Origin: Isoetes taiwanensis | Taxonomy: Eukaryota; Streptophyta; Lycopodiopsida; Isoetales; Isoetaceae | Length of the DNA stretch: 64,000 bases | Direction: 5' to 3' | Assembly: GCA_021234155.1 (NCBI GenBank) | Contig: JAJEKV010000060.1 | Span: 6,160,323 to 6,224,322 of the forward strand | In this document: piece after piece, positions 3,200 to 38,933 of the stretch | Layout: each line of letters opens with the position of its first letter | How positions within the stretch are numbered: the stretch's first letter is position 1 | Position numbers and translations under genes: made by a program | The notes under the pieces: model-generated | Database searches by the model: none | What the model saw: the letters and a program-made list of their open reading frames with translations, nothing else | What the model was told of the DNA's origin: nothing

Positions 3200-3223
3200 C
3201 TGTTTTATCTTTTTAACCCGTGG

Positions 3224-3305: not shown

Positions 3306-3329
3306 CAACATGCACAACATCTAAGACGC

Positions 3330-8228: not shown

Positions 8229-9258
8229 CCAAGATGATAGAAATTGTTCCATCCGAAGAGGTTAAAAAGCAAAGCTTTGGAATGGAGATATGGTCATCGA
8301 TGCGGGTCATGTGAGGAGTGTGCGTAAGATAATGCCGGATTATCCGGGGCGCCTCAAAACTGAAACCTGCATCTTCTTCCTCTTCCAAATGGAGGGTTGT
8401 TTGCCAAATGTATAAGATGTTTGCCATCTACTTGTGTTACGGTTTCAATCATAATATATCTTTTATGCTCTTTTTAACACTTTCTCGTTGCTGCATGCAG
8501 AGGGTACTGCTGTCTTCACTTCTTTCTGTTGGGTATATTTCCGAAATAGCAACAACAATGAACGATCTTCTTTTGGACCTTCAAGAGGAGGAGGCTTCAT
8601 CACTTGACTAGGAATCCACGAAACTAGTGGGAAAATGACACCGTAAGAAGTTCACTACTTGAGTACGCTAATAGAGGTAGTCAAGTGTTCTTGTATTTTC
8701 AATCGAGGGTTGATTGGTGAAACCCATAAGGAAGTTTATCTCGCTTTGTCGCTCCACTCCGTGTCAAAATATTGCATACGTAAGTCGTCTTGAAAGCAAG
8801 GAAAGAAAGCGACCTTGCTGCACTTTTTGAAGTTCTCAATGTATTATCGAACTATATCCTTCTAATAATGAACGAATGCTAATTCCTTGGCTTTTTGGCA
8901 GATAGATGGGTCCCTTCAGATTTGGCAATATCAAATCCATGCTTACCGGCTTTGAAACCCAAGTATCGAATTCCATTTATGATGGCCTTGATCAATCAAA
9001 CAAGGTAGTCACTTTGCTGCTTCAATGTCTATTTTACTTGGAATTAGATATGACTCTGGAAGGAAATTTGTTGTCTTCAGGAGATACTATTACAGAATTT
9101 GATATCTTTGACTACATCTGATGATGATGCAATACGTAATACTGCTCGAGAAGCACTGAAGCGATTCCAAGTCAGCTCTCCTTCTTACTTTTACTGTTGT
9201 CACATATACCATTTGAAGATTTTACTAGAGAGTTTTTGGTACTTTATTTTGTACTTTG
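8229..9258 (+). other. Single-copy spacer between the tandem copies, exon-like pieces
   Basis: This stretch separates the two duplicated units and has no counterpart after copy 2. Two pieces look exonic. 8502-8611 follows a GCTGCATGCAG acceptor and encodes LLSSLLSVGYISEIATTMND and on to a stop. About 9097-9172 follows an ATTACAG acceptor and encodes LISLTTSDDDAIRNTAREAL then KRF, which resembles a helical HEAT/ARM-type repeat. They were not assigned to a family and may be further captured gene scraps. Confidence 0.4.
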
Positions 9259-14300: not shown

Positions 14301-15214
14301 TGGTTTCCGACCCTTTTTTGCTTGGTCTAGATCGATCTTTTTATCGAATTTCTTACTTTCTTCGCCAGCTGAGGGTTTTAATCTAGCTGATTTTTGAATT
14401 AGATTGATCCACATAGGGAGCCATAAGCACAGTCTGGTAAATTTTAGGGCTAGCAGAGTACGAGCCTTTCAACAAGCTGGCTATACCATTCACTATAACC
14501 TCCAGTTTGCATAATTCCGAGATCTGACTTAATCCAAAGCAGGCAGTGTGTAAGGAATACAAAAACCACAAGTGGAAAAAAGGTATGCTAAAATATACTA
14601 TGCAACAATTTGCATCCTTTACAACGGGATAAATGCTAGTAGTTTATCTACAACAGCCAGGAACTAGGTAAGCTCACCACAATCAAGCTGCTAAGGATGT
14701 TCAAACCATTTGCTTGTTAAGGATACGCCATGAACCCATTACAATTTGATGAATATTCACCTTGTAATTATATCCTTTGCAATTTCAGTCAAATAGAAGC
14801 TACCTTGAAAAGCTTCAATAACACAAGGAAATTTTTTTGATATCGTTTAAGGGAGTTTGTTAGCACTAGAATAACGTCATTTGTCATGGCCAGACCATGG
14901 ACAATGTCGTGTGACTCTACATGTCCATTTAAATATTTAGTAGTTTGTTTGCGACTTTGATGCAAAACCATTTGATGAACTTGTTATTTGACCAATGCCA
15001 TCATCAATTACCAGCATTAAGAGGATTATAGTACATAATATAAATCTGCATGCCGAAATCGACCGTTAAAAATGCAAAAAAAATGAATGCCTTATCATGT
15101 CCAGGGCATTCTAGCCTCCTAAAACAAATGTTCACATCGACCTTAAAGCCTAACCTTGAGACTCTAGATGCTTGTTGAGTAAGGATTAGAGCTTCAGCTC
15201 AAGGATCTGAGAGG
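11351..15214. other. Non-coding part of copy 2
   Basis: Counterpart of 1441-5215. It holds the dispersed motif at 12225-12257 and the flavin-monooxygenase-like scrap at about 13213-13297 (-). Nothing else is supportable. Differences from copy 1 cluster at CAG/CTG, for example near 13185, 13455, 13588 and 14180. Confidence 0.6.
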
Positions 15215-15769
15215 AAGATGAAGCAAGAGGTCTTTCTTTGTGAGAGAAAAGGCTCATTGGTATGAGCATGCAAATAAAGAAAGTTCGAAGTGCTCTTTAG
15301 GTCTGGCCGGAAACATCTTGACGACAATGGAATAACATTAGTTATGGATGCCAATCTTTATTGAATATTTCTTCCAAGAGTACGAAAACTTTTTTTTGAA
15401 AAGCCTTTGCCTAGTACCTATGCAGCGGACCTTCAGCAGTTCCTACCGGCCCTTCAACCAGAAATCTCAGAAGAGGATAATAGTGCCCTTCTTAGGAACA
15501 TTACGTTTGATGAGGTTCATAGAACTCTGAAATCCATGCCGCATGAGAAAACACCAAGCACTGACGGTTTTCCACCGGAATTCCTCCGTTTGGCACAAGC
15601 TCAAGGAATATATGCTGCTAGCAATCAAGGGTGTTTGGGCGGGAAAAGTACTGCACCCGAGCCTGATTGCTGTCTTCGTTGCCTTAGTTCTACAGGTGGA
15701 GAGGCCCTAATCCATATTAGAATGGAGGCCCATAGCTCCGACAGGAACAATATACAAAATACTAGCTAA
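15215..15769 (+). mobile_element. LINE reverse-transcriptase fragment (copy 2)
   Basis: Duplicate of 5216-5772. It encodes QFLPALQPEISEEDNSALLR then NITFDEVHRTLKSMPHEKTP. Around 15420-15460 this copy reads CTTCAGCAGTTCC where copy 1 reads CTTGAAAGGTTCC. The version here fits the LINE linker (LQQFLPAL) better, so copy 1 appears to carry the altered reading. Confidence 0.8.
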
Positions 15770-15923
15770 GCAGTTGGCATTCAAATTAATAAACTGGTGT
15801 GCAAAAGTGAGAACCAGCCGAGAATTCGAAATACATGATGACCAAAAATAGTGCCATCTTCTCCATGGCTAATAAATATTCTTAAATACCACCTGGCAGA
15901 CTCTTGCGCAGTAAATTACTTAT

Positions 15924-16880
15924 TCAACGTTTCAACCAAGGCGTGCCATCGTGGGACGCTTCTTCCTCAAATATATAGGTCAAGGGTGCCACAAGCACAC
16001 CACTTCCAGACATCTGGGAAGGTTTTAGAAATAAGGATTTGAGAGATAAAGGAACTGATTATTATAATTCACAAACAACCAACATATGGCTTACCCCTCT
16101 TGGTTTCTTCACGTAATCGTATAAATCTTTCTTATTTACACAAATTAATATTGTAGAATAATTGACTTTAAGACTATCCTCTTGACTATACCTTTCGGAC
16201 TCACAATCCGGACCACGCATGATGTAACTTCAAGGTTGTTAAAACATCTTTGACCCTCCATGATTGTGCCCCTTTATAGCCGATAGCTTTTACCAGAATC
16301 GAAAACTTGTGAACTCTTCAACACTTCGCAAGCGACATCTTTAGCAGAGTCACCCCATGTGTTAGTTTGTCACCTACATGGCATCCAAAACCGGTGATGA
16401 GAATAGTAAAATAGAAAGCCACGGGTTTGGAAAAAAAAAATTAGCCAATACTCTCATTGATAGTTATATAAAGTAATTGAACTCTCTACCAATAATTGAT
16501 TCCTAGCTCTAAGATGTGTATCCGTGACGTTCAAGCATTTCATGGACAACCTCCAAGGCTCACAGGCTCCAATGGTGCTTTCCTACTAGCAATTAGAACA
16601 TACGAAATATTAAGATCTTGGCCTTGGTTTAAAAAGAGATTACAACATATTTTCCAAGTAAAAGCTCACCTAACTAGACATAACTTTGTCACCTTCTATT
16701 TCCTTAAGATTATTTTTTGTGAAGTGTTGTCCCACCGCTAACAAGGTCCGAATGGCATCTGCAGCACCCATCTCATCATAAATAGAACACCATCAATGAA
16801 ATATGCAAATCCTTCATAACCGAAAAGTTTGGGGCTATTAGTTGATCTGTAAGTGCTTTGGTAAAGCCGAAGCTTTTAGT
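15924..16880 (-). pseudogene. HISN1: ATP phosphoribosyltransferase HISN1, 3' half (copy 2)
   Basis: Same blocks as copy 1 in the same order. Some are better preserved: VAPLTYIFEEE is in frame near 15960-15985, where copy 1 has an extra base. Others are worse: copy 1 keeps RPRW, while this copy has an extra base there. The TAG in place of the exon-final glutamine codon is shared, so it predates the duplication. The two copies complement each other at differing CAG/CTG sites, so part of the apparent decay may be sequencing error. Confidence 0.85.
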
Positions 16881-17679
16881 TTGGGGCCCGCGGTATCATA
16901 TATAGAAATGTAGTTTACAGAATAAGAGCTTATTAAAAACAAAACTGGGAACTACAATATACAGAAAGATAATGAGTTTTAACATACCTCAACCATCTCG
17001 ACCTGTCCACGTCCTTCAAAAACTTGAGACAACACCATCTAGTGAGGTGGATGGTGCGCACCAATTAAATATACTGCAGCGCCCATTAGATGTAAGATGG
17101 CCACTAAAAATCTTCGAAAGTTATGCCCTGCAATGTAATCATGGTAATCTTCTCCACCATAGGCTGCATTCATGCCATCCTATTTCTGACCTTCATGTTC
17201 CAGCAGAAAGACCAAATAGACATTACAATATATAATCTCTCATTCTCATTCATAAGGAAGTTACAATATCGTAAAGTACTAGATTGATCTTATATGATTT
17301 TCCTGTGCATGTTTATTCCCATGAAAATTCTGACAGCAACTCAAATCTGGTTTCTATCTGCTTCTTTCCCTTTTCTCATATGATGGTTCTGGCATGCCAT
17401 ATCACCAACATTTTACGTGTACAAACATAAGCAAGGAATATGTAACTAAAAAATGGATATGATCAATATGGTTGTCATGCATGGGCACTATAGAACATGT
17501 GGAACCATGCTTTAGGACTTTTTCATTTTGTGATGAGTCTTCCAAAGTTGGCCCTTATAATAATCATTTAAGTATTAGCACAACCCAATCCTCTTAATAT
17601 CCTATAAGAACCAATCAAATAAATCCATGAACTTGTAGGAGGGTGAAATGGCATGTTTCCAACCAAATCATGTACAATC

Positions 17680-17957
17680 TAACCGCGCCTCGCTGCCGTC
17701 CAAGCATATCATCCGCACTCAACAAATTCCCAGCTCCATGGGCGTGTATATTCCTCCTAATTTTGTCCACTGTTTTCTCGGACTTCACTCGCTCCAGAAG
17801 AAATTTCCAAACAGGTAGCATGTTACCTCTGCAGATCTTCTTCAGGACTTCAGCTGATGGAAGAGAGCGGTCTGTAGAAGAATATTGAGACGGCGACCAG
17901 TAGCCCATTTCTCCTTGAAGCCATTCCGGATACTAAATCCCACACTCTTATGCACGG
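17680..17957 (-). pseudogene. AUG5: Augmin subunit AUG5 (HAUS5-like), first coding exon (copy 2)
   Basis: Better preserved than copy 1. The frame from EMGY-like MGYWSPSQYSSTDRSLPSAE continues to VLKKICRGNMLPVWKFLLER and VKSEKTVDKIRRNIHAHG. These align residue for residue with the N-terminal calponin-homology-like region of plant AUG5. The preceding DLVSEWLQ segment is out of frame here but in frame in copy 1. The frame runs out in non-homologous sequence after HAHGAGNLLSADDMLG and no downstream exon is seen. Confidence 0.85.
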
Positions 17958-18385
17958 TTGCCCGGCGCAGCCCTCTCCTAGCTTAGCCGGTTTCAAGAGT
18001 GGCTGCCCAACAACGAAAACGACTGAAAGCATTCATGACCAATAAGGGGTTTTTAGCGGTCATAGGCATATTTCAAGCATATCTTGGCATATACCTATAA
18101 TATGCCACAAACCCACATAAACAAGGGTTTGCCCCTTAGGGTAGCCCATTTCCTCGCTTTGAAGCCATTCCGGATACTAAATCCCACACTCTTATGCACT
18201 GTTTGCCCGTGAGCAGGCCTCTCCTGTTAGCTAGTTTCAAGAGTGGCTGCCCAACAACGAAAAACGACCGAGCATTCTGACCAATAAGGGGTTTTAGCGG
18301 TCATAGGCATATTTCAAGCATATCGGCATATACCTATAATATGCCACAAACCCACATAAACAAGGGTTTGCCCCCTAGGGGCAAC
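17905..18385 (+). repeat. Composite tandem repeat, two units (copy 2)
   Basis: Two units of about 240 bp: TTGAAGCCATTCCGGATACT ... GTGGCTGCCCAACAACG ... GGGGTTTTAGCGGTCATAGG ... AACAAGGGTTTGCCCC. The duplicated segment loses homology with copy 1 inside the second unit. This suggests the repeat took part in the duplication breakpoint. Confidence 0.75.
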
Positions 18386-21637: not shown

Positions 21638-24264
21638 TTAATCCTGAATCAACTTCTGCATTCTATCTCTGTGTCCTGAAGTATGAAAGGTCTCCCTTAA
21701 CCATTGTAGCTGACCTTTGCAATATTGTTTTACCATTTCAGTGGTTTCCTTTCCCAATTCAAACTCTGACATTGTTTCTAGAATTCTGAGAGCATCCTCT
21801 GTGTACTGATCTAGCCTACAATGCTCCTTTAGAATGTTAGAGAAATCATCAACCATTGCCACATCCTTAAGCACTGGCAGGAATTGGTCCAATACATAAT
21901 CATCTGCATCCAAATTAAAGCCTGGAATCAAAAGAGATGTGAAAGGTGGAGAGGCAAATGTTTTATGAATACTATCATCCAACAATATGCAATTGACCTC
22001 ATATTGTGGGTATTCACTAAAAACTGTAGATAAAGGTTTTAAGTACAATGGTTTTTCAGATCGGATGGGCCACTTGAAAGGCATCTCTAAGCAACGGGTC
22101 TGATCCCAAATAAATACAAAATCATGTCTAATAACTGGTGCTATGACATCCACAACTTCATTTACATTAACCTTGTTCATGGATGACCAAATTGCTATGT
22201 CAAAGTGTACCATTGCTGCCTGCAGAAATTCCCGTGCATGAGGCCTTAAAACAACCAATTTCTTGCTTGTTTTTGAAATCCACAATCTGTTGTCCACACG
22301 TACAGGATTGTTCCTACTGTATGTCCTTACTAGAACACCATTCACATCTAAAATAAGAAGTTTCCTCTTCCAAGAGGACTTTGTTGTACACCCTATCATT
22401 CAAAAAATATAAAGTAAACACCAACTCAAACACAAACACAAACACAAGAAATTTAAAATACTAAAATAATAATAACCTGTCAACATTTTGGTCAACATTT
22501 TGATCAACCATTTGTTCAACATTTTGGTCTTGAAATACAATTGTACATGAACATTCAAACATTTATAGTTAAATCAAAGATTTTATAGACACATTTGAAT
22601 TGCCTCTTAAGACCTCCATAATTGCATTCATTTTGGTACCTGTGTCTTCCTTTTCTAGTTCTTCCTTTTCTGGTCCTTCCTTTTCTGTTTCTTCCTTTTC
22701 TAGTTCTTCATTTTCTGGTCTTGTTTCATCCTTTTCAGATTCAACCTCAACGTCCTTTACAGATTCCATATCCTTTGCCAATGCCCTCCTTCTAAAATTG
22801 TACTTCCTGCCTTCTTGACCTGTGTTCTTTGCCTTTTTAATGTTTTTGCTCTTCTTTGGTGCAACCTCTCCATCTTTCCTTTTCCTTTTGTTGGCTGCTT
22901 TCTTCTCTCTCGAAGGGGTACTTTGTACATCCTTACTACATCCTACATCATCCTGTATAACAACAGTTTCATCCTGCTCACTTGCATAAAATTCAGTGGA
23001 TGCTGCTCTTTGCCTTAACTGCTTTTTAGGACTACACAATGCATCTTTCAGCACTTTTTCAATTCCAGAAGGTGGCACATAGTCTTCAGTAGCAGAAGAG
23101 GACCTAACAAGTGAATCATGCTGATTTGTAGGTATATCTACTGTAGGCATATCTACTATTTTATTTCCTTCTGCTGCTGTCACATGCATGCCAAGCTCAA
23201 GAAATAAATCTGGATGAATTACACCCTCACATACCTTGCATTTACCTTCCTTCAACAAGGCTGCACAAGCCACATGGTACTCATGATCACAACTCAAAAT
23301 CAAAGACAATTTGTACCTATCATGAAAAAGTAGGCCACAAGCACAGCAAGCACCAAAGTTGCAGATTCCTGGTAGTCTTCTGCTGATAGTGTTGATGCAG
23401 AATGGATTACAACTTATATTCTTCAGTTCTGTAAGATTAGAAAGATTAGCTCTGAGTTCTGAAATTCTGGCCTCTTTCTCTTTGATCTCCACTTCCAAGG
23501 TATTCTTCCTCGAGCTGCTTCCTTCTGTATCTGGAGACTTGAAAAGGTTTTTAACTCGGTTACAGTAATATGTCTCCATTTGTAGTGTCAGCTCCAATTC
23601 CTTCATCAGATCAGAATCCTCCTTCAACTCAGATATTGAGGTCTTCAAATCCTCAACTTTCTTCATGCTCTCTTCAAGTTCCACACTGAATTTTTTCATT
23701 AGACTTAGCCTCTGCAGCTAAACTAACCTCAATTGCATGCACCTCTTCTAACATGCTTGCCCTTTCATTCTCAAGCTTATTTACAGCTTCCTTAATCAAT
23801 TCAAAGTTCTCTTTTAAAGCAGAGTGGTCTAATTTTGAACTTTCTAAGCAAGTAACTTTGCTAGAAGTGGCAACATGGACATCCTTTCCCCTAGACCTGC
23901 AATTTCTATACTTCATAACTTGAGCTCCAAAAGAGGCTCAATTGATCTTGTGCTTTGCAGGGTTTGATATGGCAGTATCACAATTTTCCCATGCAAAAGC
24001 ATAAGCCACCTGCTTTCTCACTTCATTGTTTCGCATAGTTTCCTTTTGATATAATTTTTTCAACAATCTGTCCAATTTTTCTCGGAACCGAGGCTGGATC
24101 ATAGAAACTTTCATCTTATTGCTTGGGCCTTCTTGCCAAACCGAGGCCCATTGTGCATCTGTTACATTCTCTTCCAACCATTTTACTTTCAAAGCAGGCT
24201 GCAATCCTTCACCAGAAAGTCCATGAATGTCTATGAAATCTTGCTCGGTCACCGCTTCGGCCAT
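21638..24264 (-). CDS. RING-H2 and FCP1-like HAD phosphatase-domain fusion (two apparent lesions)
   Basis: Exon 1 runs from 24264 to 22640 and exon 2 from 22392 to 21638. A 247-bp GT-AG intron (CACAG^GTACC ... TGATAG^GGTG) joins them in phase 1. Order: N-terminal helical region (TDAQWASVWQEG); coiled coil (about 23850-23500); RING-H2 pattern CCAC ... CDHEYHVAC ... CKVC (about 23370-23235); basic nuclear-localisation-like run (KRKRKDGEVAPKKSKNIKKA); acidic EKEE repeats; C-terminal NIF/FCP1-type HAD domain with LLILDVNGVLV, AIWSSMN and ILLDDS. The nucleophile Asp is present, but the usual second Asp of DxDxT is Asn. Lesions: an in-frame TGA (about 23939) and a one-base slip at an A-run near 23690. 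Likely nuclear; possibly ubiquitin ligase plus phosphatase or phosphopeptide binder. Could be a pseudogene or contain undetected short introns. Confidence 0.65.
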
Positions 24265-24449: not shown

Positions 24450-27400
24450 AGGTACCACTATCAAATTTACACCCTCATGTCCTCATGTCAGTTCAGACCT
24501 CATATGCCTATAGAGTGCTCTTTTGGACAGGCTTCACCTAATAGTGTTGCACAGGCGGCACCTCCAATACAGGTTAGAAGTTCCTTGGCATGGACTACTC
24601 CTAGAGGTAGTGCTTGGATGGTGGTGCAACCTCCACAAATTGGTGTACCCACAGGGCAAGTTGTTCGTCCAACACACGTTGGAGGTTCCTCAGGGCAGGA
24701 GGAGTTTCCCCCTCTTCCCCACGGCAACCTGAGGCGACATCCTCTTCCATCCCCCGAGCTGCATTGACCACACCTTGGAGATCATCTGACACAGTCACTC
24801 GAGTTACAGGTATGTGGTTCTCTGAGTGGCTTTGCAAGGGCTTGACGATTCCCGCCACCTCGACTCGTGTCTCAAAGGCCATTGCCACCATGGTGGATAA
24901 TAACAGGAAAGAAGTTGTGTCCTATCTCCAGCAATTGCAAGCCAAGCAAGACTCTATGGATGTCCAGCTTCCATTAGATGAAATTTCTTATGAGGTTCAA
25001 GAGTGCAGGGCAACTTTTGAGCATTTTGGCTCCAGTGGTGCAGATTAGCCATGAGAATCATCGACGACATGTAAAGCAGTTGGTTGCATGTTCCGTGTTC
25101 TGCCACTTCACTAGCCCTTTCTTGGATCTGAAGCATGTGGGATCTTGGCTACCTGGGCACCTTCACAGCTAGGGCTTCCTGCTTATCAATCTATCAAGCT
25201 TGTGGCAAAAGATCAACGTTGCTTTCTTTTGATGTTTGAATCTCCTGAGCCGGCTGCTCAACTCATAGATCGAGGTGTTGATCCTCTTTGGAAACATTTC
25301 TTGCTCTATTAGCAGTATGTTCCTGGATCCTTTCCAGCTAAACCAGATGTCTTATGTGCCCCTTTCTGGTTTGCCATTGAAGATTTTCCTCTAGAGTTAC
25401 AGGATTCCAAGTTCATTTCTGCCATTGCTAATGAGATTGGACTCCATTTGCAACACTTCATAACCAATAGCATCACCAAGATTTGTGTGGCAAGGCCCAT
25501 TCATCGTGATTTGCCTCAAACAATTGTTGTCCAGAGCGAGCCCATGTTCTTTTCGTTTAAGCTGTCCTTGTTGAATGGTCCTGAGCTAGCTCTCATGTTT
25601 CCCGAAGCCCCTCTCTTTGCTCAATATCGTAGGATTCACCAACAGGATCCTCTATCTGCACCTCCGACACTCCATGCTCCTAGATCAACTCATACCTCAA
25701 TGGATATCTCTCACATCTCTGTGCCTGTGGCTGCCCCCCGCTCTTCCAGTTGCAGCTCCCCCCACCTCAGTCTCTGGATCACCAAATGTTGAGACTGGCT
25801 GAAATCCAGAAATCGCAAGAGCAAAATGAAGAGGCTCGTGGACAGTATATGGATATTGATTGGCGTGGCATCCACCCACCACCAAAACATCCACTGACTC
25901 TTCGTCAACCACGAAAATCAGATAAGGGATCTAATTCCTCTGCATTCCAACCCTCAGTTCCTGCTTCAGGTAGCATTACCTCCCATTGCATCCCATTGTG
26001 GTCGCTTTAATCCACTTCAGTGGGCTGATTTGGTTGATGAGGTTACTGCCATGCCAGATGCTTATGAAACATCCTCAAATTCCCTTGAGACACTGGCGTA
26101 CTCATCTGAATTGGCCCCATCACAAGATTAATGCGGTTAGTCTCTGGAATGTTCAGGGGATAACATCCTTCCCCCTTCAAGCGGAGTCGCATTTCTTTAT
26201 ACTTATCTAGATTGGATGCTCAGTTTGTATGTCTTCAAGAGCACAAGTGTCGTAAAGGAGATGTATCAAAGCTTGCAGACATGATTGGTCGAAGGTTTAA
26301 TGCCCTTATCGCATCAGCTGATTCTGCCAGTGCAGGGGTGCTGATAGCATGGCTTCCTTCCCTGCCAGTCATCTTTACTCAGGCTGATTGTTTTGGTCGG
26401 TGGGCCCTAATTGTATGGCAGGAACAAGGGGTTAAATATGGTCTAATTAATGTTTACGCCCATAACAAGCCCCATCAGAGAGCTTCACCGTGGGCCTCTT
26501 TGCGAGAGAAGATGCTCAGCTTGGGCTGCCACATTTTATGGCTTCTTGTTGGGGATCTTAATATGGTGAAAATGGAGTCTGATCGGTTGGAGGCGACCTC
26601 TACAGTGGTGTCTGGTTTTGAACGTCAGCAGTGGCTCCATCTACTCCATGACTGTAACCTCTCGGAGATTGATGGTGAAGGTGCCTTTACTTGGTGTAAT
26701 GGTCAAGCTGGTGGGGGTCATGCAAGCTCTCGGTTAGATAGAGCTTACTGGAATGTAGATGCAGTTGCGGCACTTCCAAATCTTTTTAAGAATACTTGGA
26801 CAATTGCCTTCAACCGACGTCGAGGCATGACTGGCATAGTGGATGCAATTTGCGGCAGTCAAAGGTTTTGCCAAACAGCGGGGTCGAGAGTCTGCAGCAA
26901 CATGTCGTGCTTTACTGGACACCTTGTATCAGGACCTGCTCTATTCTCGACAAGGACGTCTTCCAGGTGTTCATGATCGTGATATTTTGGCACAGATCCA
27001 AGCATTGGAGGAGGAGCAAATTCAGCAGGCAAAGGCGAAGGCAGGTCTGCAGTGGTTTCGTGATGGGGACCGTTGTACGGGCTTCTTTTTCCGTGCGGCT
27101 AAGAAGCATCGCATCACATCAACCATGTCCTCATTGCTTTTGCCGAATGGTTCGGTGCTAACAGATCCAACTGAACTCAAGCAACATCTGCATAACCACT
27201 TCCAGACTTTTTTCGCTGAGAAACATCTTTGCTTTCAATAAAAAATGCGAGATACTATTTTATCTAGGATTTCTCCCATCATCTCTGATGAGCAGCGCGA
27301 GTCAATAGAGGTGGCTATGACAGCTGATAATTTAGGTTCGGCAGTCTTTGAACTAAAAAGAGGCAAATGCCCAGGTTTGGATGGTTTGCCAATTGAGTCC

Positions 27401-29664
27401 TTCCAGGAGTATTGGGAATGGTTGGAGCTAGATGTGTATGATGCTTTCTGTGACTTTCGGTGGTCCACTGCTTTGGATAGAATTCTAAACACAGGTGCCA
27501 TCTCACTCATCCCCAAAGTCAAGGATCCTCAGACTATTTCAGACTGGCAGCCCATCACCTTATTATCATCCGTACATAAGATTTTCGCCAAAGCTTTTGC
27601 AGAGCGGGTAAAGGACATCTTAGCAGAGTCCATCTCAACAACCCAGTTAGGTTTTCTTCCAAAAACGGTACATTCTGAACAATGTTGCTGCTGCTTACGA
27701 GGGAATTTATTGGGCACGTAAGCAAAACCTTCCAGTTGTATACCTTAAGCTTGATTTTACAAAGGCTCATGACAGTGTCAGCTGGAAATTCATGCGTCGA
27801 TGTATGCTAAGGCTGGAATTTGGGGAACAATTCACATCAGATATTATGAAGCTGCATATCTCTGCTTGGGCGACTGTTATGTTCCATGGTGAGCTGTCAG
27901 ATGCCTTCTCACTCGGTCGTGGTATTCGCCAGGGATTCATGGTATTCGTGGTATTCGTGGTATTGTGCTTTTCACAATTGTTGCAGAGGGACTTCTCCAT
28001 GGTCTTGCAATGGAGGACGGCACACAAGAGGTTTGCAATCAATATGCAGACGTTCTGTGGACATTGGAGACTCCGGCTCCGGCGTGTGTTCATGATTATC
28101 CATGGAAATTACTTGCGCATGGACATGCCATCAAGTTGTTAGGGATTCCAGTTGGCATCCATGTTACTATGGGAGCTGCATGGGAGGAGATCATTAGGGG
28201 TTTGGAGAAGCACTTGTTTTGGTGTTCCACCGCAAAGTTGTCTCTTGCGGGTCGTATTGCAGTGGCCAAGTCAGTCCTTAGTAGTACCCATGTTTATATG
28301 GCGTCCTTACTGCTAGCACCACAGATCAAAGTGCGTGAGCTCATTGCAATAGTTCGGAACTTTAGTTGGGCAGGTACCGAGGAAGGTGTTGTGGTTAAGG
28401 TGGCTTGGTCAAAGTGCATCCTTCCAAAGTGGGCAAGTGGTCTGGGTATGATGGACTTCTTACTGCAGAGCAAAATGCTTATTTCAAAGTTCATTTGGAG
28501 ACTCCTGAATGGTGAGGATGACTCTCCTGGTTCACACCCTCTTAGACAAGCTCTTGGTCACTGTATCCCTCTAAGCAAGAAGGCTGTCAAACCAGTCCTC
28601 CCTTGGGCTTTATTTCATACTTTGCAGCCTTTTCCAAGTGCTTCTCCATTTTTGCGTGGCTTGTTGACAGTATGGGAGGCAGTCGGATATCTTTTCTGGC
28701 CATGCCCCTCTATCCACACCCTATTGGAGACTCCATGGTGGTGGGCATCACTGCCTTTAGACCCCTCAGCACCTCCATTGGCAGATCAGTTCATCCCCTT
28801 ACACAGAGACGATGGGTTCTTGCAGGTGTTGTCTCATTCAAGCATTTTATGCAGCGGGTCGCCTATTGTCTTGGCCTGAATTTCAGGCAAAGTTCCTGCT
28901 CTCTCGTTGGGATGTGTCTCTATGGAAGAAGGTTGCAGAAAATTTGCCTCTTTATAGTGCAAGTTGGTGTTGCTGAAAGGGTGCCATGGGACTGACATGA
29001 AAATATTCACAAAGGCAAGCACTTTGTCAGATCAGTATATCGCCTTCTTTTAGCACCATAGCCCCTCCAGTTGCCAGATGGGTGGCACCTACAGATTCTT
29101 CAGGCCACTTTGTGTCGTATATGGCGATGGCTTTGGGATAGGTTGCTCCACCCTCTTTGTACTGTGGTGGCAGGTTATCCACAGGTGCCTGCAGATTAAT
29201 GCCTTCCGACATTGCTATGATCCTCGCATATCTGCAGTATGCCCGCTCTGTCTTTCAGACGTTGAGACTCTTGAGTATTGTCTCTTTGATTGTCCTGAGG
29301 TTCAACCAGCGTGGTCCTGGCTACAAGGTTTGTTTAACAGTACATTGGACTGCCGATGCATGGCCTCCAGCTAAACAAAGGGCATTCCACCTTGGTTCCG
29401 GGTGGCTCCTATGGCCCAGAAAAAGATCTTGACAGCCTACGAGTGTTCCTCCCTTGAATCTGAAATGATAGAACAAATATGGATTCAGTATTTTCGAATT
29501 GATTCTTATCGTTAGTCTCCTATTCTGGAGTAAGCACATTGTGCTCCAAGCTCGTGTTCTTGTGGCATCTTTTTGTGCTTGCACAGTTAGATGAGACATG
29601 TAAATTTTGTATTTTTTATCTGTTTAATAAACGTTTTGGCTTTTGTCCTTAACAAAAAAAAAAA
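24450..29664 (+). mobile_element. L1-like LINE, defective, with poly(A) tail
   Basis: Order: a proline/glycine-rich start and gag-like ORF1 (24.5-26.1 kb) in several frames, including FWFAIEDFPLELQD and FISAIANEIGLHL as in plant LINE nucleic-acid-binding ORF1 (DUF4283-like); then ORF2. The 3' end is CTGTTTAATAAACG ... CCTTAAC followed by 11 A. The tail abuts an older minus-strand LINE fragment, so this copy probably inserted into it. Target duplication was not identifiable and the 5' end is diffuse. Confidence 0.85.
26130..29600 (+). pseudogene. LINE ORF2: endonuclease, reverse transcriptase, zinc knuckle (broken)
   Basis: APE-type endonuclease at 26145-26790: LWNVQGI, VCLQEHKC, VGDLNMV, FTWCNG and SRLDRA. 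The best single frame is 26212-26976. RT begins at 27320 with GKCPGLDGLP, then WQPITLLSSVHKIFAK, motif A VVYLKLDFTKAHDSVSW (about 27735-27790) and motif B GRGIRQGF, followed by expanded GTATTCGTG repeats at 27940-27962. Motif C is destroyed: NQYAD at about 28035 runs directly into the post-RT segment ending KLLGIPVG, so the second Asp and about 60 to 80 residues are deleted. The C-terminal zinc knuckle CPLC ... ETLEYCLFDCP is at about 29250-29300. The element is dead for retrotransposition. Confidence 0.85.
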
Positions 29665-30220: not shown

Positions 30221-30271
30221 GTTATTTAATCGGAAGTCAAGCACAAGCAAAGATGCAAGGACGAGAATGTC

Positions 30272-30316
30272 TAGGGTTTAGGGTTTAGGGTTTAGGGTTT
30301 AGGGTTTAGGGTTTAG
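30272..30316 (+). repeat. Interstitial telomere repeat (TTTAGGG)n
   Basis: 45 bp of perfect plant telomere heptamers, about 6.4 units, G-rich strand on plus. It sits between an old LINE fragment and a LINE 3' scrap, about 330 bp left of the Penelope-like element's left repeat. Confidence 0.97.
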
Positions 30317-30404
30317 TCTCAGAGGATAAGCATTGACCCACTGAGTGAAACTACCTATCTATGCATAAGACTACACATCCCAATACTCCTCAAAGATCAA
30401 GCGC

Positions 30405-30598
30405 CTCATACGAGGGACAAGTAACAATGGAATGGCTTAGCAATGATACCTTGCGCATCTTGGAGAACACGATTATCTGCCACATACAGACCTTTGAAGA
30501 CTACCAGTCTTCGTCTTTCCCAGATAGTCCATAACAACCAACCTACTGCTAAATGAAAGCTTATCTTTGTAACTTCTTTTTTTTTTTTTTTTTTTTTT
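30405..30598 (-). mobile_element. LINE C-terminal scrap with 22-bp poly(T)
   Basis: The minus strand 30570-30406 encodes AVGWLLWTIWERRRLVVFKG then LYVADNRVLQDAQGIIAKPF, the tryptophan-rich C-terminal end of plant LINE ORF2. A run of 22 T (30577-30598) lies on its right. On the minus strand the A-run precedes the coding scrap, so it is not this fragment's own tail and may be the tail of another insertion. Confidence 0.6.
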
Positions 30599-30600
30599 AG

Positions 30601-30790
30601 CATTTGGTTGCAGATGAACAACATGGATTGGGCACAGGCAAAGCCATATGGAGAGCAACTTACAGGAATATGAAGATGACAATTCAACCAATAAATATTC
30701 ATGATGGCCGCATTTGGATGCAGATAAGCAACATAGATTGTACATACTTGCAATGCCATAAGGGTGGGCAACTTACAGGAACAAGAAGAT
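30601..30790 (+). repeat. 110-bp imperfect tandem repeat at left edge of Penelope-like element
   Basis: CATTTGG(T/A)TGCAGAT ... CAACAT(G/A)GATTG recurs at 30601 and 30711, and GCAACTTACAGGAA recurs at 30655 and 30769. The right-hand direct repeat (from 36857) begins inside unit 1, so only the left end has nearly two whole units. Confidence 0.7.
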
Positions 30791-32745
30791 GGGGCTGCAA
30801 CTAATGAAAGGTATGGCTTATACTATAGATGTAATGATGATGTCTAAGAGTATTCTAAGAAATGGATACCGAAAATGTTAAAAGCACAATATTGATACTA
30901 GGGATAAAGGATAAACGGTTAACCCAATACAAAATTAAGGTCTGTTCTGGCCTTAGGTATTGAAGCAGAATATGAAGGTGTATGATATATAGGTAGTTTT
31001 ATCTAAAGTTGGAAGCAGATTGGGAACTTGGTTGGAACATTGGCAATAACACAAGATGGTCAGCATACAAGGGTAAAATTAGCATGGGGCTAACATACCC
31101 GCAAGTAAGGATGGTTGTGGCATCAAAGCATAGGGGCTGGTGAAACCATGGGCACTAATATTATCGGCAAATGTAACGAAAATAAAAAACAATGCAAAAG
31201 ACAATGGTTCTAACTATTAGCAATTGCAATATTAGGTTTTTTGGATTACAGATGAAGGCGACATCGTGAATGGAATAAACAGATAACTAAAACTTACAGG
31301 TGAAATCATGAGGACGACTGGAGGAGATGCATGCATGAGCCGTAGCAGACCAGACTGCCGGATATTGCTGGAAAAAGGTATGACGAGGCAATCTTTTAGG
31401 ACTGTCGGTAGCATGAACAAAAGTTATTTGGTCGGTAGTGTTCTTAAGTTTTGCTTTTATAGACAAGTAAGGCATTGGCGCTAAATTAGAGCTCTCCTAT
31501 GCTTGGGATCATTTTGGCCCCTAATATGGGCAGAAAGAAGGGAGATCTTAACATGGCTACAAGAAAGAGAATTGCTGAGGAGAAGCAGAAATCCTCTGGC
31601 AATAAGAAGATCTTTCAATATAGATCTTCTGCTGTTCCTTCCAAATGCAGTAATGCTGGGCAGAGGAATGTTGATATTGAAGGTAGTAGGATGGAGAAGG
31701 AAGTGGTTGAACCCAATAGCAATCTCATTCCTAAGGCCATGGAGGAGTCTTCTGGGATTGACAAAGCAGTAAAGATAGGTGCAGATCTGGACAAAGCAGA
31801 CAGTATGGTGGATAGCATGGAGTTTACATACAATAACAAGATGGCAAGCAGATCTGAAGACATCAACATGGAGAAAACAAACATGAAGGGACGTCCAACA
31901 AAGGTTTGATCTAGAATTATATGTAGTGGCTGAGTAGACAGAATTAAATGTATATAAATCTTGTAGATCCTGCAGTTTTTAGTAATAATCTGCTGAGGCA
32001 TGGGCCTAATTTAGAGTTATCTACTAATGATGCAAGACTGATGCAAAGCATGCATAGGACATGAGATGGCGATAAATTGAGAAAGATTTTAAGTAGATGT
32101 GTTGGTAAGATAATAAGTTTCATAGCAAGCTTTAAGAATAATTTAGATATGTATAATCTGGCATTATGGCATGAATGCAGGCAGGGTGAAGGGGGAAGAC
32201 CTCAAAGAAACTTATGACACACTGCTAGTAGCTTAGGCTTTTACCCATTTCCATGGCTAACCGTCCCTTTGATTTTACCGCAAAATGCAGGGTTTTTTGC
32301 TCCTTGTTTCGTATTCTTTTATGGACTTGGAACTTGAAGATGATTTCTCAATTGTTAAAGCAGCAACATATGGCTATATGTTTCAGAAAATTGCTACTAA
32401 AACTTGTAAGACAGTAGTATCATGCTGGTATATCAGACCTCTCATGGTAATAAATGACTTCTACGCTAAATTTATAGTGTTACAATGGAACATATAATAT
32501 GTAATGCATTTCTTATTCGTATTGATGAGACAATACGTCTATTAAATATGTATTGTTGTTTTTTAATATGAAGATGGGTTCAAGATTTAAAAACTGTGTT
32601 TATCATGAATACCAAGTCTTGGCCTGAACATAAGGCTACCTGGTTATGTTCAGGACTGCTAATTGAACTTTCTTGTTTACTTTCTAAGGTTGCAAGGAAG
32701 TTGTAGTCTGTTCTAGTTTTCTGGAGTAGATTAGAAGGTTTTTTT
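30648..32745 (+). repeat. Pseudo-LTR A of Penelope-like element
   Basis: About 2.1 kb, near-identical to 36857-38909. Differences are few and mostly at CAG/CTG (for example GCAGAA versus GCGTAA, ACAAAAG versus ACAGG, CCGCAAAA versus CTGCAGG). It contains the presumed 5' untranslated region, ORF1 exon 1 (31526-31903) and putative exon 2 (32291-32446). It does not begin TG or end CA like a true LTR. Confidence 0.93.
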
Positions 32746-34473
32746 ATCCATAAATCAGTTTATTAGTTATACTAATAACCATGACTGTGGTATTTGAAAA
32801 TGCAGGTAGTATTTCATATTATTAATTATTTTCCTTAAAAATGCTTACAGGAAAAACATGAGGAAATAGCAGATATTTACAAGCAGTGGATGAAGGAGTT
32901 GGTGATCCTTAACTATGACAAATGCAATATCTGTAGCCCTAATGTTGCTGTGCAGACCATATTAGGCTGCATAAAAAATAAGGAGATTCATTCCTTTATT
33001 ACTTTTAAGGAAATGAATTTATGTGACAAAGACATGTCTCCGGTTTCATACCTGGGTTTCAGTGGATGGTTTAGAGTTTTCCAAAGCATGAAGAAACTCA
33101 ACTTTGAGTTCGGGGAATGCAAGAAAATATTGATTGAGCTTTACAACGACATGGGCAGTATTTTATACAAAAGAACCTGCTTGGAAGACGAGGCAGCAAT
33201 CATGTTCATGTCTGGTATGCCTATTTTAGAAAAAGCTAATGATATAGTTCAATCTTTTGACAAGGATGATGAAAACAAGGACCAGGATACTGTGGAGGCA
33301 TTAGCTGAACTTGATGATATGCAGGGCTGTCTTTTCTCGGACAGTGACTTAATTGAAGATGACATGGCAAATTCAGAAGTTGGAAATAAGGAAAATACTG
33401 CCAATACTACTTCTGCCAGTCAAGATGATGAAAAAGTCCCTGTTCTTACACTTTCTAATTCCACTTGTTTTCCTGTTATTACTGAGCAGACAGTGGAATG
33501 CTATGCAGCAGTCCATGACCAAGCTATTTGGAAGAGTCTCAATTTTGGGGCTCTAGCCCCTATGGACATTGACACATGGATTGCATTAGCAGGCATCAAC
33601 AACAATGAAATCAAACAGGCAAAAACTGCCGCACATAAACTGGAGAAAACTTTTGACACTATTGAGGTAAATATTCCTTTCAAGATGGATTTCTTTGAAC
33701 AGGTCTGCATCAAGGATGCACCTATTGTCATTAGCCAAAAAGGCCATATGGCCTTTCCAAATATTTCAAGGAATGATTACTATCTAAAACGTATTTGGAG
33801 AGCACATTGTCCATACTTTAGGTGCCCTTGTGAGAAGGAAAAATTTAACAAGAAGAACAAAGAAGATGCATGTGGTTGTGGCATAATATGGTTTGACCAT
33901 GGAATATGGTATTTACTCAATCATATGGAAATGATTTTACCTGGGGCAGCTCCAATACTCAAAATGGTCACTCTGACCAAACTTCTGAATAAAACAATGA
34001 GGAAAGCAGTCTTAGCGTACATATCATACCTTGAGGTACGCAAGAATATGATTAACATGACCATTGCATATGCAAACAATCCTACAAAGAATCTGAAGAT
34101 GGCATTTGGAAACAATAAAATGGCAGACATAGCTGAAAAAATGATCAGGCCAGTTTCATTCTTGAAAGAGAGGAACTCTGCTAACAGGGCTGCTTATTTT
34201 GAAAAATCATATGCTGGCAGTAGCAGCAGCAAAAACATACAAGTTTCTATGACTGCACCTAAGATGCCACCACGGATTACCAAAGATCCCAAAGGGAGCA
34301 GCATGATTACTGACCAGGCAAGGACGCCTTCTGCAAATACCTCTACCAAGTGTCAAGATGAATATTCAGTCAACAAAAGCTGCAACAAGATCATATCCTT
34401 GGAGGATAATGCACCACTTAAACTTGATTTTGTGGCAGACTCCCAGGAGGGATCTGAAAATATGGATACTTAA
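31526..34473 (+). CDS. Penelope-like element ORF1, predicted three exons
   Basis: Predicted exons 31526-31903, 32291-32446 and 32851-34473 (126, 52 and 540 codons plus stop). All junctions are phase 0: AAG^GTTTGA ... TGCAG^G and CATG^GTAATA ... TTACAG^GAA. The start MGRKKGDLNMATRKR is chosen because sequence upstream differs between the two pseudo-LTRs while the frame is conserved from here. Exon 1 is basic then acidic; exon 3 has an acidic middle, a Cys/His cluster HCPYFRCPCEK ... ACGCGIIWFDHG ... LLNH (33801-33924) that could bind zinc, then a Ser/Lys-rich tail. No known domain is recognised. A role in RNA binding or targeting is inferred only from its place before the RT. Without exon 2 the frame also stays open, so it may be a cassette exon. 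Confidence 0.7.
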
Positions 34474-34642
34474 ATGTGCTCTTTTGGGCAAAGTATTTTG
34501 GAAAATAGATGACAGTCTTTATGACTCTTGCCATTTGGCTTTGGTTCCATGAACCACAAACATTAATGAAAAGTTTTTTGAATCTTATGAGTATACAATA
34601 AGTTCAAATGCTAACTTAGATTTATTTATGTAGGATAAAAAC

Positions 34643-36691
34643 ATGAAGAAAAGGACCATTACTAGAGACATCAATAGATATAGACATCTGAACAGTAATG
34701 GCAAAGAGATGGAATCTCGGATTGTACATATGAAATTTTTATCTAAGGCTCTTGATGCCTTCAACATTAGGAAAATTTTCCACACAGTTCTATATGAAGT
34801 CTTCCAAGAAAGGGGACAGGAACTAGTTGATTGTACAACATTTGCCTGGAAATATGTGGAACAGATCAGAGACAAAGTATACAAACCTTTTATGATTTTC
34901 TCTAGTGAAAGGACCAATAAATGTCCATGTCAGAACCCCAATCTAAGAAAATACATTGACCATAGGATTGGCCACATTCGGACTACACGTTTGGATATTA
35001 TACACAGTCCAAAACTGAAAAAAGCATTTGCATATGGGCTGAACCATATACCAGACCAACCATTGAGTATTCAGGAATTTATGGAAGAATTCAAATCATT
35101 ATGTCAGGAGTTCTTTTGTGTCCACAAATATGACTTACTGGATCTTAATGATCAAGATGTTGATAATATCATTAGCATGCTGGAAAATGCTGCTCATGCA
35201 GAAATAGTTTGTCTCAAAAGCACTCTCCAAACAAAGAGATTTCTATGGCAAGATCTGGATGTTAAAAAGAATTTGGAATGGCTGAACAGAAATCTATATG
35301 TGGCTGGATTGGACAAAGCTGCTAATAATGCTGTCTTTATTTGTCCAAAACATATTGCAGACATGGCCAGATGCAGACTCAACAGTGCTGATTTTCAGAA
35401 ACAGGAAGTAAATGTAGAAGGGATTAAATGCAAATGCTTAACTGAAATAGAAAAGCTCATTGGGACTGTGTATATTAAGAGCAAAAACCTGCCATATCTT
35501 ATGGCTACATACAAGGCTCATAAAGGGGAATACCGGTGGCTTACAAATGCGCACAACACCATATATACAGAAATTGCTGGCATAATCACAAGTATTCTAA
35601 ATGATTTCATTAGGATATGGCCAGAAATATGTTTTAGGATGACGGCCAAATACAGGATTTGGAGTCCAAAAAGGATTAATGCTTGTTGGATTGTAAACTC
35701 GGCATATGACGTGATTCTCAATCTGCCAAATAGAATATACAATGTATTTTCTGCAGACATAATGAAATGCTACGAAAATATCCCCATATTTGGGGAGGAA
35801 GGGATTATTGAAATAATGAATGAAATTGCAGATATGGTATGGGAATTTCAAATGGAAGTTCATAGATGTTTCGATCTGCTTATTAAAACAAAGAATGAAG
35901 AAATGCTATGTAAATGGGCCAGATCCTACAAAGACAAAGAGAATGTCAGCTGGCAGCTAATTACAAGGGAAAAGTTCAAAGAAATGAATGCTTGGCTGTT
36001 GAGCAATTGCCTTCTGCAGATGGGTAAAGAAATATGGAAACAAATCAAAGGTATACCCATGGGATTTGCATGTAGCCCTGCTTGGTGCAATATGTATCTT
36101 GCTTGGTATGAACTGAGATTTATTCTTAATCTTGCACATAAAGGTAGACTTTCGGATATTTACAGGTTTCAAAATGCTGCTAGATACATAGATGATCTCA
36201 ACATTATCAATGGAGACAATGTGATGGAATTCCTTACAATAGGAGCAGAGGTAACAATTTATAACCTGGATTTTCTTAGTATAAAGGATGAAACGGAGTA
36301 TCTACATAACAGGAAAGTGGATAAGGATATTGGCAGCAAATGCAATTTTCTCAACATCACAATCAAGGGGGGACTGTTCTCTTTAACAAGATATGATAAA
36401 AGGTCAAATCTGCCATTTAGTGTGAATAAATTCATAAGTGCAAACAGTTGTAGGCCTTATAAACAGGCCTCAAAAGTCATCATATCGCAAATCATGCCAT
36501 ATGTGTATGCACATTCTGAGGTTGTTACTGCTGCACAAGACATACATGGACTAATTGATGCCTTTGCCAACAAAGGGTTTGGAAAGTTAAAGATTACAAA
36601 CCTGGTTCTGAAAGTACTGCAGGAAGAAGAATTCCCTGGAACATTGTATGCAATTAAGGACATGATCAAGCTTTTAAAAGATTCAATATAA
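34643..36691 (+). CDS. Penelope-like reverse transcriptase, 682 codons, no GIY-YIG
   Basis: Uninterrupted ORF. N-terminal region with DKAANNAVFICPKHIADMA (about 226-244; compare the ADKG block of Penelope-like elements). RT blocks: MATYKAHKGEYRW and NTIYTEIAG (about 285-312), motif A FSADIMKCYENIPI with Asp372, motif B GIPMGFACSPAWCNMYLAWY (470-489), motif C RYIDD with Asp517 and Asp518, then CNFLNITIKGGLFSLTRYDK and NKFISANSCRPYKQASK, matching the FLD..., YRKP... and HP...K blocks after the palm in this class. Only about 165 residues follow motif C, enough for a thumb but not for a GIY-YIG nuclease. The ATG follows a TTTATTTATGTAG^G acceptor-like site, so splicing from upstream is possible. 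A domesticated RT-related (rvt) gene is the alternative, but the flanking repeats argue for an element. Confidence 0.88.
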   Translation: MKKRTITRDINRYRHLNSNGKEMESRIVHMKFLSKALDAFNIRKIFHTVLYEVFQERGQELVDCTTFAWKYVEQIRDKVYKPFMIFSSERTNKCPCQNPNLRKYIDHRIGHIRTTRLDIIHSPKLKKAFAYGLNHIPDQPLSIQEFMEEFKSLCQEFFCVHKYDLLDLNDQDVDNIISMLENAAHAEIVCLKSTLQTKRFLWQDLDVKKNLEWLNRNLYVAGLDKAANNAVFICPKHIADMARCRLNSADFQKQEVNVEGIKCKCLTEIEKLIGTVYIKSKNLPYLMATYKAHKGEYRWLTNAHNTIYTEIAGIITSILNDFIRIWPEICFRMTAKYRIWSPKRINACWIVNSAYDVILNLPNRIYNVFSADIMKCYENIPIFGEEGIIEIMNEIADMVWEFQMEVHRCFDLLIKTKNEEMLCKWARSYKDKENVSWQLITREKFKEMNAWLLSNCLLQMGKEIWKQIKGIPMGFACSPAWCNMYLAWYELRFILNLAHKGRLSDIYRFQNAARYIDDLNIINGDNVMEFLTIGAEVTIYNLDFLSIKDETEYLHNRKVDKDIGSKCNFLNITIKGGLFSLTRYDKRSNLPFSVNKFISANSCRPYKQASKVIISQIMPYVYAHSEVVTAAQDIHGLIDAFANKGFGKLKITNLVLKVLQEEEFPGTLYAIKDMIKLLKDSI

Positions 36692-36769
36692 TTTCTCTTT
36701 TATCAATTGTATTGGAAGTATTGAAGAAGAATAAAGAGTAGAAAGGCATAGGAAGGGTAGGGTCTTGTG

Positions 36770-36840
36770 AGACAACAAGGCCCTACTCTCCTTGTTGTCT
36801 ACAAAAGATTATCCTGACCCACCCACTCCTACGGTAGGAG
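36770..36840 (+). other. Two hairpins between RT stop and pseudo-LTR B
   Basis: 36770-36780 (AGACAACAAGG) pairs perfectly with 36790-36800 (CCTTGTTGTCT) around a 9-nt loop. 36826-36831 (CTCCTA) pairs with 36835-36840 (TAGGAG) around CGG. They lie in the short 3' untranslated region and could serve as an RT recognition structure or processing signal. This is inference only; no hammerhead core (CTGATGA ... GAAA) was seen. Confidence 0.55.
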
Positions 36841-36856
36841 GCAGGATGTTAAAAGC

Positions 36857-38898
36857 ATGGAGAGCAACTTACAGGAATATGAAGATGACAATTCAACCAA
36901 TAAATATTCATGATGGCCGCATTTGGATGCAGATAAGCAACATAGATTGTACATACTTGCAATGCCATAAGGGTGGGCAACTTACAGGAACAAGAAGATG
37001 GGGCTGCAATAATGAAAGGTGTATGATATATAGATGTAATGATGATGTTAAGAGTATTCTAAGAAATGGATAAGCACAATATTGATACTAGGGATAAAGG
37101 ATAAATTAACCCAATACAAAATTAAGGTGGTCATTGAAGCGTAATATGAAGGTGTATGATATATAGGTAGTTTTATCTAAAGTTGGCAGCCGATTGGGAA
37201 CTTGGTTGGAACATTGGCAAATAACACAAGATGGTTGGATACAAGGGTAAAATTAGCATGGGGCTAACATACCCGCAAGTAAGGATGGTTGTGGCATCAA
37301 AGCATAGGGGCTGGTGAAACCATGGGCACTAATATTATCGGCAAATGTAACGAAAATAAAAAACAATGCAAAAGACAATGGTTCTAACTATTAGCAATTG
37401 CAATATTAGGTTTTTTGGATTACAGATGAAGGCGACATCGTGAATGGAATAAACAGATAACTAAAACTTACAGGTGAAATCATGAGGACGACTGGAGGAG
37501 ATGCATGCATGAGCCGTAGCAGACCAGACTGCCGGATATTGCTGGAAAAAGGTATGACGAGGCAATCTTTTAGGACTGTCGGTAGCATGAACAGGTTATT
37601 TGCTGGTAGTGTTCTTAAGTTTTGCTTTTATAGACAGTAAGGCATTGCGCAGAATTAGAGCTCTCCTATGCCGGATCATTCTGGCCCTAATATGGGCAGA
37701 AAGAAGGGAGATCTTAACATGGCTACAAGAAAGAGAATTGCTGAGGAGAAGCAGAAATCCTCTGGCAATAAGAAGATCTTTCAATATAGATCTTCTGCTG
37801 TTCCTTCCAAATGCAATAATACTGGGCAGAGGAATGTTGATATTGAAGGTAGTAGGATGGAGAAGGAAGTGGTTGAACCCAATAGCAATCTCATTCCTAA
37901 GGCCATGGAGGAGTCTTCTGGGATTGACAAAGCAGTAAAGATAGGTGCAGATCTGGACAAAGCAGACAGTATGGTGGATAGCATGGAGTTTACATACAAT
38001 AACAAGATGGCAAGCAGATCTGAAGACATCAACATGGAGAAAACAAACATGAAGGGACGTCCAACAAAGGTTTGATCTAGAATTATATGTAGTGGCTGAG
38101 TAGACAGAATTAAATGTATATAAATCTTGTAGATCCTGCAGCTTTTAGTAATAATCTGCTGAGGCATGGGCCTAATTTAGAGTTATCTACTAATGATGCA
38201 AGACTGATGCAAAGCATGCATAGGACATGAGATGGCGATAAATTGAGAAAGATTTTAAGTAGATGTGTTGGTAAGATAATAAGTTTCATAGCAAGCTTTA
38301 AGAATAATTTAGATATGTATAATCTGGCATTATGGCATGAATGCAGGCAGGGTGAAGGGGGAAGACCTCAAAGAAACTTATGACACCTGCTAGTAGCTTA
38401 GGCTTTTACCCATTTCCATGGCTAACTGTCCTTTGATTTTACTGCAGGTAACAGGTTTCTTTGCTCCTTGTTTCGTATTCTTTTATGGACTTGGAACTTG
38501 AAGATGATTTCTCAATTGTTAAAGCAGCAACATATGGCTATATGTTTCAGAAAATTGCTACTAAAACTTGTAAGACAGTAGTATCATGCTGGTATATCAG
38601 ACCTCTCATGGTAATAAATGACTTCTACGCTAAATTTATAGTGTTACAATGGAACATATAATATGTAATGCATTTCTTATTCGTATTGATGAGACAATAC
38701 GTCTATTAAATATGTATTGTTGTTTTTTAATATGAAGATGGGTTCAAGATTTAAAAACTGTGTTTATCATGAATACCAAGTCTTGGCCTGAACATAAGGC
38801 TACCTGGTTATGTTCAGGACTGCTAATTGAACTTTCTTGTTTACTTTCTAAGGTTGCAAGGAAGTTGTAGTCTGTTCTAGTTTTCTGGAGCAGATTAG

Positions 38899-38909
<11 letters not shown>
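36857..38909 (+). repeat. Pseudo-LTR B of Penelope-like element
   Basis: Direct repeat of 30648-32745, stopping in the GGTTTTTTT present at 32737-32745, where a LINE poly(T) tract of 30 starts (38903-38932). It is truncated there, or interrupted by the LINE. The sequence that should follow (ATCCATAAATCAG) was not found on the far side of the LINE. Confidence 0.93.
37692..38610 (+). pseudogene. ORF1 exons 1 and 2 duplicated in pseudo-LTR B
   Basis: 37692-38069 is the second copy of exon 1 (378 nt, open) and 38455-38610 of putative exon 2 (156 nt, open). Splice-site dinucleotides (AAG^GTTTGA, AACAG^GTT, CATG^GTAATA) and phase are conserved. No downstream exon 3 follows because the unit is cut at 38909, so this copy cannot make full ORF1. 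Equal length and an open frame in both copies support the exon model. Confidence 0.75.

Positions 38910-38933
<24 letters not shown>

Follow-up and report, generated by a model that had tools for sequence, protein, structure and literature searches.

How elements with a telomerase-related reverse transcriptase (RT) and no endonuclease move is an open question, and those described are tied to telomeres. We addressed this question at a locus of the lycophyte Isoetes taiwanensis, in a stretch of 64,000 nucleotides (the window; assembly GCA_021234155.1, contig JAJEKV010000060.1, positions 6,160,323 to 6,224,322; G000:C1068:6160323-6224322 in our genome searches) in which an earlier note had placed a Penelope-like retroelement with two open reading frames (ORFs). 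The element is probably autonomous, a Penelope-like retroelement of the endonuclease-deficient kind in a lycophyte; this judgement covers the complete explanation with its mechanism. The assignment to this class in a plant host was supported by a telomerase-type RT fold, pseudo-long terminal repeats (pseudo-LTRs), tandem copies, a retained intron, the absence of a GIY-YIG match and a high copy number. New relative to the earlier note are the T-run ends, a U7 tract between hairpins, a covarying structure in the 3' untranslated region (UTR), the RT as an exon, and ends that carry no telomeric repeats.

Element boundaries and genomic copies

The element is bounded as follows.

30577 to 30598, plus strand: run of 22 T, 5' end of the element (end mapping)
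30599 to 32745, plus strand: upstream pseudo-LTR, terminating in ...AAGG-T7 (direct-repeat alignment)
36857 to 38902, plus strand: downstream pseudo-LTR, its first ~70 bases absent in the window copy (direct-repeat alignment)
38903 to 38932, plus strand: run of 30 T, 3' end of the element, common to the tail of the neighbouring repeat (end mapping, flank search)

The 2.1-kb direct repeats of pseudo-LTR type reported previously were recovered at 30648-32745 and 36857-38909 with 96.4% identity. The span of 30648 to 38909 assigned to the element stands as the alignable extent of these repeats, but the true ends are the two T-runs; the former limits are alignment limits, since ~70 bases are missing from the start of the downstream repeat. 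The description as a two-ORF element was too simple, in that the RT frame is most simply a splice exon.

We searched the complete genome (1,658,258,908 bases in 1110 contigs). Such searches score the best candidates only, so total copy numbers are not derivable from them. The RT protein gave a best 66 scored matches (65 copies) of 4761 first-look candidates, and the ORF1 exon gave a best 82 scored of 3845 candidates. Among the 66 scored RT stretches, 51 were free of stops, and identity to the window RT ranged from 57 to 97%; intact copies are over-represented here because only the best candidates were scored. We fetched 20 further copies with their flanks and compared them with the window copy (n = 21). 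Long direct repeats were present in 18 of the 21, and four copies (L018, L019, L026 and L028) carried coding pieces of a second unit, in tandem or partial tandem. Aligned genomic copies and their repeats thus exclude a single-copy locus without repeats elsewhere. The hallmarks of LTR retrotransposons were absent, with no TG...CA ends and no integrase or protease match in the four frames scanned.

A reverse transcriptase of the telomerase/Penelope class by predicted fold

34634 to 36691, plus strand: RT exon (frame 34643-36691) with catalytic D372, D517 and D518 (sequence, alignment, fold, splice-site comparison)

The RT frame was confirmed as 682 codons without stops, and D372, GIPMGFACSP, RYIDD (with D517 and D518), FLN and YDKR all fell in conserved alignment columns. 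D372 and D518 were invariant across 21 aligned RT rows. The predicted structure showed a telomerase-like RNA-binding domain at about residues 69-250, followed by the palm and then the thumb. Telomerases ranked first for this model by both Foldseek and VIA, at the level of the fold and across all three parts. On this modelled fold we assign the RT to the telomerase/Penelope class.

By sequence, 54 protein relatives of the RT were found, and a profile search for deeper relatives returned the same 54; sequence searches of the PDB gave no match. Pfam at E 0.1 on the RT and its 54 relatives gave RVT_1 in 49 of 55 and otherwise scattered chance matches. No endonuclease domain was detected by profile search in the RT, its 54 relatives or ORF1. 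One metagenomic relative (P0015) carries a precomputed match to PF26215, a family that our Pfam scan at E 0.1 did not list. A viral or phage origin of the element was rejected: one search of viral_contigs gave no pattern match, a second gave 96 stretches that matched a pattern with none confirmed, and no relative was found in the phage records searched.

For the RT selection test, 19 of 21 frames were used (the broken L009 and L015 were left out) and L012 was dropped for a stop, which left 18. Synonymous sites were saturated in 138 of 153 copy pairs, and the median omega was 0.10 in the 7 pairs with synonymous divergence (dS) of 0.05 to 2. For ORF1 exon 2, the test used the 14 of 21 copies in which a single clean stretch matched, a set that excludes L009; saturation affected 67 of the 91 pairs, and the median omega was 0.13 in 5 pairs. 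Because most pairs are saturated and omega is near 0.1, these comparisons indicate several old element lineages kept by purifying selection on both proteins.

ORF1 and RT as predicted products of splicing

31526 to 31903, plus strand: exon 1, 126 aa from the inner ATG, with a conserved basic N-terminal block and a phase-0 donor AAAG|GTTTGA (frames, copy comparison)
31904 to 32850, plus strand: intron of 947 bases that begins in the pseudo-LTR and runs on into the internal region (splice-site analysis)
32851 to 34473, plus strand: ORF1 exon 2, 540 aa, with a cysteine-rich block and no known domain (frame, copies, profile scan)

The prediction of a spliced ORF1 of more than 650 residues was upheld, with 666 aa from the inner ATG across exons 1 and 2. 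Exon 1 sits inside the upstream pseudo-LTR, and the two exons are apart in genomic copies. The exon 1 end read AAG|GT in 8 of the 9 copies whose match spans it (L015 has AT), and a pattern search found the donor AAG|GT(T/C)TG in 13 of 21 copies. The profile scan matched no known domain in ORF1, as the earlier note had stated. A separate search for ORF1 relatives gave 6118 candidates, of which none reached E 0.01, and the single-sequence structure model was unusable (predicted local distance difference test 33.5). The ORF1 exon 2 and RT frames are conserved in other genomic copies, which makes them more than chance open frames.

An acceptor of TGTAG or TATAG type, in phase 0, was present in 21/21 copies 9 nt before RT codon 1 (6 nt in L025), and its TAG is the in-frame stop just 5' of the RT frame. 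Branch-point-like CTAAC or CTGAC was seen by eye 5' of this acceptor in many copies. Since the acceptor is kept in every copy and codon 1 is other than ATG in 14 of 21, the RT frame is most simply read as a splice exon starting at 34634, not a free-standing ORF; the ATG of the window copy could still serve as a start. The donor would somewhat more likely be that of exon 1 (weak, conserved and in phase 0), which would give both proteins a shared basic leader. A less likely candidate lies inside ORF1 exon 2 and would produce an ORF1-RT fusion. This site, donor-like and in phase 0, falls on a conserved Glu-Val codon pair and scored at least 4 in 11 of 14 copies, and conserved coding alone may maintain it.

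The element ends in T tracts

Ends were mapped from the direct repeats in 15 copies. At least 14 T were found at 14 of 15 mapped 5' ends, and 13-30 T at all 13 mapped 3' ends, counts that include the T6-T7 encoded by the element itself. The window holds only four T-runs of at least 12, two of which are the element ends, and no A-run of 12. None of the 15 mapped 5' or 13 mapped 3' ends was a telomeric joint; all were T-runs or, once, a truncation. The telomere association described for the endonuclease-deficient group was thus not seen at the mapped ends.

The right flank is a dispersed repeat (best 40 scored of 815 candidates). Its matches reached query base 1 or 2, that is, the T-run, in 36 of 40 cases, the window's own included. 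Five other copies of this repeat were fetched; they showed T8-T23 before the same boundary, differing bases before the T-run, and no element. Because the flank repeat carries a T-run at the same boundary where the element is absent, the target on the right side is a T tract belonging to the tail of another repeat. On the left, the element adjoins a different dispersed repeat of about 260 b (best 40 scored of 1976 candidates), which comes to within two bases of the 5' T-run. A T tract probably served as target on the left side and in other copies as well.

This left-flank repeat, at 30317-30576, resembles a short interspersed element (SINE); 30 of its 40 listed matches had exactly the same score, at 83% to the repeat copy in the window, which suggests a uniform, recently amplified family. 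An interstitial array of about six TTTAGGG units (30271-30316) adjoins the 260-base repeat, 0.3 kb upstream of the window copy.

Predicted RNA structures flank a candidate start site

32706 to 32731, plus strand: predicted hairpin at the pseudo-LTR 3' end, directly before AAGG-T7 (RNA fold prediction)
32739 to 32745, plus strand: T7 (U7 in RNA), equal to the inserted 3' end, proposed internal start of reverse transcription (end mapping, hairpin comparison)
32760 to 32778, plus strand: hairpin TTATTAGT-TAT-ACTAATAA at the start of the internal region (hairpin comparison)
36747 to 36804, plus strand: RNA of the 3' UTR in which two covarying helices overlap, a candidate pseudoknot or switch (alignment, covariation tests)
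36826 to 36846, plus strand: hairpin ..CCTACGGTAGG.. 3' of the helix block (copy comparison)

T7 lay between the predicted hairpin and a hairpin with a GGTT(A/T)TACC core in 18 of 21 copies. Repeat ends located 13 of these, and the other 5 came from a pattern in which the inner core was already included; the arrangement was found in none of L009, L014 and L017.

The 3' UTR block was present in 40 of the 41 copies examined and absent from L009. This count comprises 36 complete by pattern, L057 by eye, the window copy without a following T-run, and L011 and L060, visible only up to the block. In helix I, 96.0% of cells were paired, with 7 both-side changes against 1.3 in shuffles and no excess of pair types. 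In helix II, 94.3% were paired, with 12 both-side changes against 4.9. The outer helix II formed 5.04 pairs with its own partner against 3.67 when swapped (0 of 5000 shuffles; 28 distinct pairs), and copy relatedness can inflate all of these tests. A single H-type pseudoknot with both full helices was rejected, as both helices use CAAGG and only a short loop joins them; the block would be either a partial pseudoknot or a switch. In other copies the hairpin at 36826 to 36846 is followed directly by a T-run and ATT, the pseudo-LTR start.

Hammerhead ribozymes are common, though not universal, in the terminal repeats of Penelope-like elements. Rfam gave no hammerhead hit for the window stretch or for the 7 copies searched among the 20 fetched, and unusual hammerheads may escape this search. 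Matches of the repeats to known RNAs were weak and below curated scores, none a ribozyme.

Proposed mechanism and alternatives

In the mechanism that we propose, the transcript would start in the pseudo-LTR, and splicing of exon 1 to exon 2 would yield ORF1, while the RT mRNA would join an upstream donor (exon 1 or the site inside ORF1) to the RT exon. The template RNA would retain the intron, because genomic copies keep it. Through its telomerase-like RNA-binding domain the RT would bind the element RNA, probably by contacts with the hairpins and with the pseudoknot of the 3' UTR. U7, which would be exposed because it lies between two hairpins, may then pair with the A-strand of a poly(A/T) tract already present in the genome, at which a nick or break not made by the element has freed the 3' end. 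The paired tract end may prime synthesis of complementary DNA (cDNA) from inside the RNA, and the other cDNA end, at the second T-run, may join the remaining tract by homology. Such priming would account for a T-run at each end of the element, for an orientation that is always the same and for the copy truncated at its 5' end.

The proposal draws on Poseidon of Anolis (PAc; PMC11167929), whose reverse transcription begins internally at a stem-loop of the RNA, on the telomere-complementary repeats that Terminons, in the available text of PMC6431247, use for attachment next to a 3' fold, and on U7 as the corresponding tag. Penelope elements are also discussed in PMC3846280 for their retention of introns and their oddities of self-priming. 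As a tentative picture that we hold with some reserve, the element may be a telomerase-like mobile ribonucleoprotein that has departed from the chromosome ends. Its U7 tag would have replaced the telomere-complementary tag and would permit poly(A/T) priming anywhere, including retroposon tails; the RNA-binding domain would recognise the pseudoknot of the element's own 3' UTR; and one leader exon, alternatively spliced, would allow both proteins to be made.

The nick could also be supplied in trans to the same element, by L1 long interspersed elements (LINEs) cutting T-rich sites or by the GIY-YIG proteins of the genome. L1-type nicking would expose T-tract targets, LINE-like frames adjoin the window copy (by eye), and 121 GIY-YIG stretches were scored in the genome. 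However, no listed GIY-YIG stretch lay within 40 kb of the 65 RT copies (lists compared by eye), and no RT frame was seen in six 3.2-kb GIY-YIG loci inspected of the 12 fetched. We regard mobilisation by an endonuclease supplied in trans as somewhat unlikely as a rival reading; trans-nicking by LINEs is compatible with the poly(A/T)-priming mechanism. L1-like LINE remains (endonuclease- and RT-like frames, by eye) lie upstream of the element at 26212-29400, and the GIY-YIG frames of L029-L031 lie within a repeat family, with a frame resembling a PIF1-type helicase close by in L031.

An element of Athena/Coprina type, whose interstitial copies would be old chromosome-end remnants with secondary T-runs, is improbable. 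It would agree with the attachment of endonuclease-deficient elements to telomeric overhangs via complementary repeats beside a 3' ribozyme fold (available text of PMC6431247), with the telomere association of such elements in Selaginella (available text of PMC12477314) and with the TTTAGGG array near the window copy. Against this, no mapped end was a telomeric joint, at least two tandem telomeric units occurred in just 1 of 21 copies, where they lie beyond an unrelated 260-base repeat, and 19 of 20 fetched copies lay on contigs longer than 3 Mb, at least 0.5 Mb from a contig end. Long-lived lineages under strong purifying selection might also be read as a domesticated, immobile rvt-like gene family, but this reading is hardly credible for a family with thousands of candidates, with direct repeats and ends in T tracts, and with tandem, truncated and stop-bearing copies.

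Other features of the window

A large direct duplication occupies 1-18254 (1878-8232 against 11867-18254 at 95%, shorter pieces at 99%). On the minus strand, frames at 21638-23699 resemble a plant FCP1-type phosphatase and a RING-like protein (by eye).

Significance and comparison with known systems

The element may show the spread of a telomerase relative inside chromosomes instead of at their ends. Its many stop-free copies, mapped ends, candidate start site, adjacent RNA structure and RNA-binding domain offer a system for studying RNA recognition and internal priming in vitro, comparable with telomerase. It also cautions that an RT frame in an element of this kind may be an exon.

Selaginella and conifers are already recorded as hosts of endonuclease-deficient Penelope-like elements (available text of PMC9033089). 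The word Penelope is absent from the available main text of the I. taiwanensis genome paper (PMC8566536), and PMC2864245, in its available part, names Penelope-like only as an order and samples Isoetes for Gypsy elements. The literature on Penelope-like elements with Isoetes, lycophytes or pseudoknots, in the text available (including PMC11630846 and PMC11722881), did not describe the element or its structure; key papers of 2007, 2014, 2016, 2017 and 2021 fell outside this search, and priority is not established.

Compared by description, the Isoetes element resembles the endonuclease-deficient group (Athena, Coprina, and the Selaginella and conifer elements) in its telomerase-related RT without GIY-YIG, its two coding units and a lycophyte or conifer host. 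It differs in ending in T-runs instead of telomeric repeats, in a 3' RNA tag of U7 instead of telomere-complementary repeats, in having no detected hammerhead, in an RT made from a splice exon, and in an ORF1 without relatives at the sensitivity used. With PAc it shares pseudo-LTRs, tandem units and AT-rich targets (PMC11167929), as well as the internal start at a stem-loop proposed here. However, PAc has a GIY-YIG endonuclease, of which none was found in the Isoetes element, and its start site in the RNA lacks homology to the cut DNA, whereas the proposed U7 start matches its target tract. Unlike telomerase (TERT plus TER), the Isoetes element is mobile and multi-copy and copies its own long RNA, and its pseudoknot-protein contact is a proposed one. 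As in telomerase, its RT has the RNA-binding domain first, then palm and thumb, with a pseudoknotted RNA suggested as partner.
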